DNA from: Chitinophagaceae bacterium T5-Br10_B2g13
GTDB lineage: Bacteria; Bacteroidota; Rhodothermia; Balneolales; Balneolaceae
Reading direction: 5' to 3'
DNA length: 40,678 bases
Assembly (NCBI GenBank): GCA_001564065.1
Contig: LKNA01000023.1
Location: forward strand, 1-40,678
Below are positions 38,087 through 40,678 of the stretch, piece after piece; position 1 is the first letter of the stretch, and every line of letters starts with the position of its first letter. The translations under genes and the position numbers were made by a program. The notes under the pieces are model-generated. The model saw only the letters and a program-made list of their open reading frames with translations, made no database searches and was not told the DNA's origin.

Positions 38087-38175
38087 TATGCATCAAATTC
38101 AACGTGCGCCTGCTCTCTTCTAAAAAGAGGACATATCACTTCTCACATATCCTCATATATCTTTACATTGCCGGC

Positions 38176-39822
38176 ATGATTAGTTTGTTTTACAAAAATC
38201 CGGTTCACAGGTATGCCTTATCAATCATCCTGCCTGTTGCATTGCTGATCGTTCTGCCGGTCAGTTCAATTTCCCAAGATCTGAACCTCGATCCGATTCA
38301 GGATCGTTTTCGCTCAATCGCTCAAAACTCAGTCACCTCTTTGGAGGGATCCGGTGACCTGATCTGGATGGGGCCCGGATTGAATGCATACTCCGGGCTG
38401 ACCGGAGAGGTCTATATTCCTGAAATGGCAGACAGCGTTTTTGTTGGCCGCGGACGCGTTTTTTCACTGCAAGCAGATGGAGATCAAATTTTTGCCGGAT
38501 TGGGCTTCACCTCATCTATTGGTGATGATTCTGCACAGACGGCAATGGGGTACTACAGATCGGCTAACGCCGGAAATTCCTGGCAATTCATCCCTTTTCC
38601 ACTCGATGATCGTCCGGGTACAGCCTGTACAGGATCAGATGTCGGTACGCCCTGTGACATGGAGTTTGAATATGGCAATCGAACATATCTTCGTACCCGA
38701 ATTACCGTTCCGCAGCTATCCCCTCCGTTTGAGGTTGATTTATATGATCAAACACTATTATCCGTCAATTGGGCATCGGGACTGTTGAGAAGTTTGGACA
38801 ATGGAGTCAGTTGGGAGCGCTTGATTCTTCCGCCCTCTTCTCTTCATGAGATGAATCCAAACATGGATGATATTGAATGGATCTCCCAAACCTCGGATGG
38901 AAGCATCGTAAACAGATATGACCCGCGCTTCGACAACAATCTGTTAGGTTTTGGCCTGATGATCGATGATGATCAGAATGTATGGGTGGGAACTGCCGGA
39001 GGAATCAATATCTCACCCAATGCACTTACCGCACCGAGAAGTGAAATTGAATGGAGACGAATCTCCTTTCACTCGGATGAAGATAGCGGTCTTTTAGCCA
39101 ACTGGGTTGTTGCGATACGACAACAGCCGGGAACAAACCGAGTATGGATGACCAACTGGATGACGGACCGAGAGAATCGCGATCAGAATGGCGTGGTCTA
39201 CACGGATGATGCTGGAGTCACTTTTTATCATGCACTTACAGGAGTAAGAGTAAATGATATCGGATTTTGGGATGATAAGGTGTTTGCTGCTGCAGACGAT
39301 GGCCTCTACCTATCTGAGGACGATGGGGAGTCATGGGGCAGGATAAGCAGGATCAGCAGCCCTAACACTTTTATTAAGGAGGACGCCCGATACTACGCGA
39401 TTTCATCAACCGATTCTCACTTGTGGGTTGGAACGAGTGATGGAGCTGCATACACCTCTGATGGAGGTGAAAACTGGAGCATCCTTCGGGTCAATCTTCC
39501 TCTGCGCGGCGGAAATATCTATCAGCCAGATGCACCCGAAAGTGATACATATGCCTATCCAAATCCATTTTCGCCAACTCAACACGGTGTTGTACGAATC
39601 AAATTTGAAACCACCGCTCCCGGACCGGCTACCATTCAAATTTTTGATTTTGGATTGAATACCGTAAGAACTATTGAAGTTACAACTTCAGGCCAAGGCA
39701 GCTTCGAAGCCACCTGGAACGGACAAACAGAGTCCGGCCGATATGTTGCAAGCGGAACCTATTTCTACCGTGTGAAAACTCCATCCGGAACAGCTGATGG
39801 CAAGATATTATTGCTGGATTGA
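38176..39822 (+). CDS. Secreted Asp-box beta-propeller protein with sorting tail
   Basis: 548 residues from ATG 38176. An upstream GTG at 38104 would add 24 residues without improving the signal peptide; the ATG gives a normal one ending VSSISQ. The body carries about five Asp-box-like turns (NAGNSWQF, DNGVSWER, DDAGVTFY, DDGESWGR and DGGENWSI), indicating a sialidase/Ycf48-like beta-propeller. The C-terminus (about 455-548) is a FlgD-Ig/T9SS type A-like domain (YPNPFSP ... GTYFYRVKTPSGTADGKILLLD), so export to the cell surface or medium is likely. Enzymatic residues of sialidases are not recognised; function unknown. Confidence 0.8.
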   Translation: MISLFYKNPVHRYALSIILPVALLIVLPVSSISQDLNLDPIQDRFRSIAQNSVTSLEGSGDLIWMGPGLNAYSGLTGEVYIPEMADSVFVGRGRVFSLQADGDQIFAGLGFTSSIGDDSAQTAMGYYRSANAGNSWQFIPFPLDDRPGTACTGSDVGTPCDMEFEYGNRTYLRTRITVPQLSPPFEVDLYDQTLLSVNWASGLLRSLDNGVSWERLILPPSSLHEMNPNMDDIEWISQTSDGSIVNRYDPRFDNNLLGFGLMIDDDQNVWVGTAGGINISPNALTAPRSEIEWRRISFHSDEDSGLLANWVVAIRQQPGTNRVWMTNWMTDRENRDQNGVVYTDDAGVTFYHALTGVRVNDIGFWDDKVFAAADDGLYLSEDDGESWGRISRISSPNTFIKEDARYYAISSTDSHLWVGTSDGAAYTSDGGENWSILRVNLPLRGGNIYQPDAPESDTYAYPNPFSPTQHGVVRIKFETTAPGPATIQIFDFGLNTVRTIEVTTSGQGSFEATWNGQTESGRYVASGTYFYRVKTPSGTADGKILLLD

Positions 39823-39854
39823 GTGGATTTTTTTGAAAACTGAAACTACTAATC

Positions 39855-39966
39855 CGTCACTTCGAGCGGAGTAAATGGAGCAAGGCGAAATGAACGCAGT
39901 CGAGAAGATCTTGCCAAGCAACACAATGTTCTCGACAGGCTCGAACTGACGCGGGGTTTTGCTAGC
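39855..39966. repeat. 112-bp tandem repeat unit 1 (long hairpin plus spacer)
   Basis: Begins CGTCACTTCGAGCGGAGT, contains a 27-base insert, then TCGAGAAG, a loop of about 21 bases, and TTCTCGACAGGCTCGAACTGACG, the imperfect inverse of the beginning. The hairpin part is 39855-39951; a 15-base spacer (CGGGGTTTTGCTAGC) follows. It repeats at exactly 112 bp. Confidence 0.9.
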
Positions 39967-40078
39967 CGTCACTTTGAGCGGAGTAAATGGAGCAAGGCGA
40001 AATGAATGCAGCCGAGAAGATCTTGCTAAGCAACACAATGTTCTCGACAGGCTCGAATTGACGCGGGGTTTTGCTAGT
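39967..40078. repeat. 112-bp tandem repeat unit 2
   Basis: Same length as unit 1, with six single-base differences, all transitions, and the same hairpin plus 15-base spacer. No insertions or deletions relative to unit 1, so the duplication is probably fairly recent. Confidence 0.9.
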
Positions 40079-40106
40079 CGTCACTTCGAGCGGAGTCGAG
40101 AAGTTC
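40079..40106. repeat. Left arm of the GIY-YIG element
   Basis: CGTCACTTCGAGCGGAG then TCGAGAAGTTC: the third copy of the unit start, at the same 112-bp phase, but without the 27-base insert found in units 1 and 2. It is the probable ancestral arm. Confidence 0.8.
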
Positions 40107-40219
40107 ATTACTAAATTCATTTTTACTCCGACGCACTTCTGTTTGACGACATGCACATTTTATTGTAAGGAGATCGCATACTTTGTTTCATACAAGTAGA
40201 GTAACCAAATAATAAATTT

Positions 40220-40513
40220 ATGATGAAAATGAAAAAATCATGGGTGTACATTTTACTCTGTTCAGATGGTACTTTTTATACGGGATGCACAACAAATCTT
40301 AAGCAAAGAATAGAACAACACAGAGAAGGTTTATTTGGTGGCTATACGGCCAAAAGGAGACCACTTAAATTGGTTTGGTATGAAGAATTTCGTGATATAA
40401 ATAATGCCATAGATATGGAAAGGAAAATCAAAAAGTGGTCTCAGGCTAAAAAGAGGGCATTAATTAAAGGGGATTTTGATACTATCTCAAAACTTGCTAA
40501 GTCTAAAAATTAA
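40220..40513 (+). CDS. Small GIY-YIG nuclease inside a repeat-bounded element
   Basis: 97 residues. The GIY-YIG catalytic fold is complete: VYI (about 9-11), YTG (20-22), the arginine in LKQRIEQH, and the glutamate in DMERKIKKWSQAKK. The family is the COG2827/YhbQ-like stand-alone group, often found many times in Bacteroidota genomes, with a basic C-terminus for DNA contact. It should cut DNA using a single metal. The gene lies between inverted repeat arms at 40079-40106 and 40517-40540; the right arm starts 3 bases after the stop. This arrangement implies a mobile unit. Start is the first of two close Mets (40220 or 40223); a role in copying the repeats is inference. Confidence 0.88.
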   Translation: MMKMKKSWVYILLCSDGTFYTGCTTNLKQRIEQHREGLFGGYTAKRRPLKLVWYEEFRDINNAIDMERKIKKWSQAKKRALIKGDFDTISKLAKSKN

Positions 40514-40516
40514 CGA

Positions 40517-40540
40517 GTTCTCGACGGGATCGAACTGACG
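40517..40540. repeat. Right arm of the GIY-YIG element
   Basis: GTTCTCGACGGGATCGAACTGACG is close to the right end of the hairpin in units 1 and 2 and is an imperfect inverted copy of the left arm. Together they bracket 462 bp, 40079-40540. Confidence 0.8.
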
Positions 40541-40554
40541 TTTTCTAAATAATT

Positions 40555-40565
40555 CGTCACTTCGA
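40555..40565. repeat. Decayed extra repeat start
   Basis: CGTCACTTCGA restarts the left-arm sequence 14 bases after the right arm and then diverges. Probably a truncated copy. Confidence 0.45.
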
Positions 40566-40588
40566 ATACTATGACTAAATCAAGTGAA

Positions 40589-40678
40589 TCAGGCTGATTT
40601 TTTCCATTGTTCTTTCATATTCTGGATATGGTTTGGGTCATATTCTGATTGATTATTCCACATGGCGCAGTACAAACG
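40589..40678 (-). CDS. Possible C-terminal end of an unidentified gene
   Basis: The only minus-strand frame open to the right edge encodes 29 residues beginning RLYCAMWNNQSEYDP and ending KKSA before a TGA at 40591-40589. It would be the C-terminus of a gene continuing past the window. Too short for a family call; the other two frames on this strand are closed. Confidence 0.35.
   Translation of the reverse strand, partial: RLYCAMWNNQSEYDPNHIQNMKEQWKKSA

Follow-up and report, generated by a model that had tools for sequence, protein, structure and literature searches.

A small GIY-YIG nuclease gene housed within CGTC-tagged palindromic repeats, a candidate enzyme of a REP-type element

The window (the whole stretch of DNA analysed, 40,678 nucleotides of contig LKNA01000023.1 of Chitinophagaceae bacterium T5-Br10_B2g13) carries near its end an array of palindromic repeats comprising two gene-less tandem units, a third unit bearing a GIY-YIG nuclease gene, and a remnant of one more unit (Table 1). 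In the gene-less units, two CGTC-tagged palindromes are arranged head to head; the spacer of the third palindrome pair houses the nuclease gene, with the CGTC ends pointing outwards.

Table 1. Palindromic units and the nuclease gene in the window
Feature	Coordinates	Strand	Basis
Gene-less tandem unit 1, head-to-head dimer of CGTC palindromes	39854..39965	+	sequence
Unit 1, left palindrome, CGTC tag, CTTC-GAG-loop-CGA-GAAG	39855..39910	+	sequence
Unit 1, right palindrome, CGTC outward on minus strand	39928..39951	-	sequence comparison
Gene-less tandem unit 2, identity to unit 1 107/112	39966..40077	+	sequence comparison
Unit 2, left palindrome	39967..40022	+	sequence comparison
Unit 2, right palindrome	40040..40063	-	sequence comparison
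Gene-bearing unit, left palindrome, CGTC-ACTTC-GAG-CGGAGT-CGA-GAAGT-TC	40079..40106	+	sequence
GIY-YIG nuclease gene, 97 aa	40220..40513	+	ORF and profile match
Gene-bearing unit, right palindrome, minus strand CGTCAGTTCGATCCCGTCGAGAAC, tip GAT replaces GAG	40517..40540	-	sequence
Remnant, start of one more unit, TAATTCGTCACTTCGA	40550..40565	+	sequence comparison

Each arm of the gene-bearing unit is a small imperfect hairpin composed of the CGTC tag, a stem, and a GAG-loop-CGA tip, and the stop codon of the nuclease gene lies 3 bases before the right arm; the enclosure of the gene by the arms, as described in the initial annotation, is read directly. Over its first 18 nt the left arm is identical to unit 1, and the right arms of the two units agree in 92%; the arms are thus the same repeat as the one forming the tandem units, as had also been proposed. 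The spacer between the hairpins is only 17 nt long in the gene-less units versus 410 nt in the gene copy, and the loop of the left hairpin is longer in the former. It is the identity with the tandem units that rules out a chance pair of arms, since pairing alone cannot exclude it: the score of the inverted pairing was reached in 290 of 5000 dinucleotide shuffles, i.e., not beyond chance. With standard DNA parameters, the folding of single arms is unremarkable (z of +0.88 and -0.42), and the 97-nt dimer of unit 1 folds unusually well (z of -2.62). No known RNA family was found for the arms, the window having no match at the Rfam gathering scores. Of the earlier reading of units 1 and 2 as gene-less derivatives, the relatedness to the gene copy holds, and descent from that copy is a candidate history. 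Draft contigs end close to repeat arrays both here (window 40540–40678) and at the contig starts of two further loci of the same genome, L004 and L005, so the arrays may exceed their assembled length.

The protein encoded in the spacer is a GIY-YIG protein (PF01541, E 1.8e-19) with no NCBIfam model at E 0.001, and it has the residues that are unchanged across 50 aligned proteins, of which it is one (Y10, Y20, G22, R30, T43, E67, K77, and K78). The nearest solved structures are those of UPF0213 proteins (E 2.8e-12), and the predicted structure (pLDDT 91.2) resembles two UPF0213 structures at E <0.001, followed by Slx1 chains at E 0.003–0.02, the GIY-YIG fold being common to all of them. Slx1, according to PDB titles, works together with Slx4 on branched DNA, an activity which would suit a hairpin or cruciform substrate for the window nuclease. 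Stand-alone Slx1-like prokaryotic members are described in the part of the 2006 survey of GIY-YIG proteins consulted here (PMC1564403), the text of which contains no word starting with "palindrom". Among the literature matches listed, judged by titles and beginnings of abstracts and with preprints and most subscription papers lying outside, none links GIY-YIG proteins to REP palindromes; in the text of PMC9465073 "GIY-YIG" and "repetitive extragenic" occur once each. The structural kinship to a branched-DNA nuclease, as judged from the model, would also agree with a housekeeping function, in which the enzyme would trim or resolve cruciforms of palindromic repeats for the benefit of the host, its location among the repeats being a matter of autoregulation. 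Such a function is improbable in view of the patchy presence of the gene: the A1 model, whose matches can include UPF0213-like rows such as L003, finds it at E 1e-8 in 182 of the 296 genomes of the phylum sample (own genome included), with up to 16 matches per genome. The empty sites and neighbouring gene copies described below look selfish, too, and repeat-rich genomes can be devoid of the nuclease.

The source genome contains nine GIY-YIG places at E 1 or better. The window unit recurs on contig C233 as two further tandem copies, both nearly complete, on C150 as a 75% copy, and on C209 as a partial one. Three of the loci (L004, L005, and L006) represent a second nuclease family, flanked by hairpins unlike those of the window. 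Matches to the left part of the L004 element were found at 11 places, of which 3 contain the gene and 8 have none of their own, so that gene-less relatives of an element, expected by the initial annotation, are found in the very genome that carries three gene copies. The 8 gene-less matches span the first 80–95 of the 147 query bases; one gene-less copy retains both the left and right parts, and the search for GIY-YIG places (E 1 or better) lists no nuclease on contigs C108 and C58. In the flanks of L004–L006, a second pair of hairpins, which are GCGGCG-rich, separates the tag palindromes from the gene, and these hairpins occur in gene-less copies as well. Eleven loci of the genus located 3' of the ortholog of ORF 38104–39822, drawn from 23 genomes with a match to this ORF (own genome included), have neither a tip hairpin nor a tblastn match to the window nuclease; they were rejected as a clean local empty site, because one of them comprises only 108 bp and the downstream gene differs from that in the window.

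Relatives of the nuclease gene were gathered from named genome contigs (the best 80 of 540 confirmed stretches) and from the phylum sample, the latter providing 30 loci and 60 further regions, 57 of which were taken in score order, with some skipped and some widened over neighbours, and three (L197, L198, and L199) picked for side-by-side copies. Removal of ORFs longer than 260 aa and of duplicate entries reduced the 186 ORFs to 176 genes, including 162 with at least 350 bp on both sides; the window gene, followed by only 165 bp, is thus outside this set. A composite test (a direct repeat with a score of 18, an inverted repeat with a score of 16, or tip hairpins on both sides, all within 400 bp) was passed by 125 of the 162 genes and failed by 37, versus 3 of 231 control windows placed in the same loci regardless of genes, which bears out a flanking of the gene by such repeats at many loci. 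The proportion was 41/65 among the named loci, 81/93 in the phylum sample, and 3/4 in the own genome, the fourth gene being L003. With the five regions fetched or widened for neighbouring copies (L160 and L196–L199) left out, it was 114/150, the phylum sample then giving 70/81, or 53/63 with one gene per genome. Flanked named loci come from Pseudomonadota (21/34), Bacteroidota (15/23), Ignavibacteriota (2/3), Thermodesulfobacteriota, Chloroflexota, and a genome with no phylum assigned (1/1 each); Nitrospinota gave 0/2.

The individual repeat classes give the same picture. Direct repeats between the up- and downstream flanks (score of at least 25, 400 bp) accompany 91 of the 162 genes and none of the 231 controls (93 genes within 600 bp, the median length being 123 bp), and inverted repeats (score of at least 16) 51 genes and two controls. 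A tip hairpin on either side is found at 97 of the 162 nuclease genes and at 18 of the 96 other ORFs of the same loci. The latter count would agree with the nucleases being ordinary mobile or junk genes that persist where intergenic DNA is rich in repeats, without being linked to these at the molecular level. This explanation is very improbable: tip hairpins on both sides occur at 52 of the 162 nuclease genes but at 0 of the 96 other ORFs, they are missing from all 10 loci of UPF0213-like genes, and the repeat type matches the nuclease tree (see below). The association of the nuclease gene with palindromic repeats is very likely real. A loose tag scan allowing long loops was abandoned as too noisy (outward tags on both sides at 37/162 genes, the reverse orientation at 32/162, controls 10/140), as was a scan for imperfect hairpins with a score of at least 16 on both sides (58/162 genes, 10/140 controls). 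One region, L198, carries three tandem nuclease genes, starting near 1533, 1953, and 2371, i.e., ca. 420 bp apart, with direct repeats between them.

The hairpin tip was characterised by scanning the 350-bp flanks of the 80 named loci (the best 80 of 540) for all two-base internal mismatches. GA opposite GA was found in 82 inward and 57 outward hairpins versus 6.4 and 6.1 expected, while the other combinations reached 12 inward hairpins at most, save TC/TC, which is the same class read on the other strand. These GA/GA hairpins, closed by a G-C pair in 135 of 139 cases, are present at 55 of the 80 loci, and thus the form stem-GAG-loop-CGA-stem is frequent among the palindromes. In DNA, tandem G.A pairs can make a stable non-Watson-Crick step. 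Around 160 cores GAGC(2-3)GTCGA, collected with no stem requirement, the first four neighbouring positions are complementary in 79–88%, and 28 distinct perfect 5-bp stems are found; three scrambled cores occur in 6, 8, and 1 places, numbers too low to yield a definite value. Of 263 tip hairpins, 166 have a CGTC, TGTC, or CCTC tag at the 5' side versus 28 at the mirrored side, and the tag is followed by AT in 82 and by AC in 42 of the 166; in the window arms the following bases are AC or AG. Palindromes with no GAG-loop-CGA tip are found at other loci, e.g., TGTCATTCCCGC..GCGGGAAT.

The association is absent from the few UPF0213-like genes available. Ten such loci, so labelled by us for the similarity of their products to the L003 protein of the own genome, have a single direct repeat (score of 23) and neither an inverted repeat nor a tip hairpin, unlike the 18 loci from the same search nearer to the present clade, with 10 direct repeats, 3 inverted repeats, and 11 with tip hairpins (2 of the 30 loci were dropped owing to short flanks); since the split was itself made by score, the similarity score is no test of membership in UPF0213. 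Moreover, the repeat type co-varies with the nuclease phylogeny: it requires 25 changes on the nuclease tree versus a mean of 57.9 and a minimum of 49 in 200 shuffles, and the nearest nuclease from another family has the same repeat type in 86 of 127 cases versus a mean of 40.7 and a maximum of 59 in 1000 shuffles. As far as the trees tell, the repeat type follows the nuclease, and a part of this agreement may reflect host kinship. Genomes with several repeat types gave no signal in the first binning (10/25 versus 8.0 in shuffled data); after the bins had been merged by the base preceding GAG, which was decided upon after seeing the data, the figure was 19/23 versus 10.0, reached by 1 of 2000 shuffles. 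The flanked or not flanked state itself clusters little on the tree (29 changes versus a shuffled mean of 33.7 and a minimum of 29).

The tag and the dimeric arrangement bring these repeats close to the CGTC superfamily of REPs described by Di Nocera, De Gregorio and Rocco in 2013 (PMC3733652), in the consulted parts of which CGTC tags with TGTC and CCTC variants, a stem starting with AT, and head-to-head dimers are reported. The tag variants and head-to-head dimers are also found in the nuclease-flanking repeats, the dimers being present in the window units, in Azospirillum lipoferum, and at 15 of 19 distinct places in the genome G002; AT follows the tag in 82 of the 166 tagged tip hairpins, and AC or AG in the window arms. 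Those same parts of the paper report no dedicated transposase for CGTC REPs and no transposase gene flanked by CGTC units, and suggest that REPtrons of this superfamily may have vanished early, whereas here 125 of 162 GIY-YIG genes are flanked by such repeats, the action of the enzyme on them being putative. The word GIY-YIG is absent from PMC3733652, and the GAG-loop-CGA tip is not met in the portion of its text covered, figures aside. Of the 57 plasmid-collection records with a relative, four were examined, three of them from taxa named in that paper (Neisseriae, Sinorhizobium meliloti, and Azospirillum lipoferum) and one being the best match. Strong flanking repeats were found in three of the four. 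In Neisseria gonorrhoeae, the nuclease gene lies in ATTCCCGCGCAGGCGGGAAT repeats with the tag CGTC, which we identify as dRS3, the CGTC-1 of Neisseriae in PMC3733652; in S. meliloti it is located between hflX and mazG, and in A. lipoferum it occupies the sufB–sufC gap and has a complete dimer at either end. The fourth record, of Methylobacterium bullatum, has weaker flank scores (direct 18, inverted 20).

The sufB–sufC gap of Azospirillum provides a clear presence/absence site, at which gain and loss are not told apart. In A. lipoferum, which has the gene, it is 617 bp long. Four relatives lack the gene there, namely A. ramasamyi, A. oryzae, Azospirillum sp. B510, and A. thermophilum, and their gaps measure 91, 87, 129, and 55 bp, the closest relative being 96% identical; the empty sites foreseen in the initial annotation thus exist. 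These four were compared out of the 23 Azospirillum records matched, the other seven listed matching in two pieces with a coverage of 69%. In Sphingomonas parapaucimobilis (L288, 1029–1439) the sufB–sufC gap contains a DUF559-domain gene in the place of the A. lipoferum GIY-YIG element. Fragments of the dimer with 83–87% identity are found on four other replicons of the A. lipoferum strain, and Sinorhizobium sp. K101 has the gene at the S. meliloti position with fewer upstream repeat copies, in our reading of both sequences. In the genome G074, a dispersed pair of copies lies ca. 6.5 kb apart, identical in 88% over 722 bp, starting with TGTCATTCCC and ending with GGGTATGACAGA. It is the only one among the dispersed copy pairs seen to have tags at both edges; a tag is present at one edge in L160 and L199 and at neither edge in L147. 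No target-site duplication or excision product was seen at the copy pairs and sites compared.

Repeats and nuclease do not always go together. Repeat-rich genomes, defined by an excess of at least 20 TGAGC(2-3)GTCGAA sites over the reversed pattern, constitute 41 of the 296, and 36 of them have a nuclease match versus 146 of the 255 others (Fisher p 1.1e-4, not corrected for kinship), while the correlation of copy numbers over the 296 genomes is weak (Spearman 0.17, not corrected for phylogeny). The remaining five (G002, G128, G162, G192, and G277), with no A1 match at E 1e-8, speak against a strict repeat–nuclease co-occurrence, and with it the earlier expectation that gene-less hairpins be confined to gene-carrying genomes. 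In a PF01541 search of these five and four other genomes, the matches in the five fell in frames of at least 295 aa, bar one, a 118-aa frame in G162 (C25:10075-10308, L139; E 4.7e-4, slightly over the cut-off for the family), and this frame may, by its sequence, be a distant small member. G002, a single contig (loci L259–L278), has 244 TGAGC(2-3)GTCGAA sites, its dimers are tagged TGTC, and neither the A1 model nor PF01541 revealed a small GIY-YIG gene in it. Of two findings named in the initial annotation as telling against its reading, arms abundant in genomes devoid of the nuclease are thus observed in part, in 5 of the 41, while relatives generally devoid of arms are not, given the flanked majority.

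The pattern of G002 parallels that of REPs present without RAYTs, and it also fits a nuclease that does no more than invade repeats. In the latter case, the repeats would be spread by something else, and a free-standing GIY-YIG homing gene would use them as cleavage sites, in agreement with the five repeat-rich genomes without the gene and with the position of the window gene in the dimer spacer; SegB, a GIY-YIG homing enzyme, moreover causes tandem amplification of its own locus according to passages of PMC13096335. We consider homing unlikely, since many of the genes lie between direct copies of a unit rather than splitting one, the repeat type tracks the nuclease phylogeny across host families, and gene-less copies and the gene element have common parts beyond the tagged palindrome.

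The GIY-YIG gene is more probably the enzyme of a REP-type selfish element, the nuclease driving the repeats. The flanking repeats of the relatives, frequent against the 3 of 231 controls, together with the gene-less relatives and empty sites, bear out the suggestion of a nuclease–repeat system comparable to RAYT/REP; we infer cutting and transposition in such a system, with an enzyme unrelated to that of REP/RAYT. According to this proposal, the gene lies inside or between head-to-head dimers of CGTC-tagged palindromes, and the minimal UPF0213/Slx1-like nuclease would recognise an extruded palindrome by its tag and tip, often GAG-loop-CGA with tandem G.A mismatches, and would nick or cut it. 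If the cut were then repaired from neighbouring or distant copies, units could be duplicated in tandem and gene-less dimers could spread, and sometimes the entire gene-bearing unit might be copied to another location. A broader and more tentative proposal, which we hold at somewhat below even chances, is that the whole CGTC REP superfamily is mobilised by GIY-YIG nucleases dedicated to it, which would read the tagged hairpin and thereby give prokaryotes a means of spreading DNA independent of RAYTs; if true, it would explain both dRS3 of Neisseria and the TTCGACAAGCTCAGG-type repeats in Pseudomonadota and Bacteroidota. REP palindromes are widespread in bacteria, and according to the passages of PMC3733652 consulted no enzyme could be assigned in 2013 to one of the two superfamilies; the present data point to a small GIY-YIG nuclease as the partner so far lacking for a widespread repeat family, and a small, abundant nuclease group with no assigned role gains a candidate substrate and a structural motif.

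Two further known systems can be set beside the one proposed here. SegB is required for tandem amplification in phage T6, as stated in passages of PMC13096335, and therefore provides a precedent for the duplication of units: in both cases a stand-alone GIY-YIG gene is tied to tandem amplification of its locus. However, SegB comes from a phage and has an association with tRNA genes, and no palindromic repeat family figures in those passages. The likeness to RAYT/REP and REPIN, i.e., to the GTAG REPs, described in part in PMC3733652, lies in an enzyme gene flanked by palindromes, in dispersed gene-less dimers, in family-specific pairing of enzyme and repeat, and in genomes having the repeats without the enzyme. 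The two differ in the enzyme, which is a tyrosine (HUH) transposase in RAYT/REP and a GIY-YIG protein here, and in the tag, GTAG in the former versus CGTC in the window and CGTC, TGTC, or CCTC in the tagged majority of tip hairpins.
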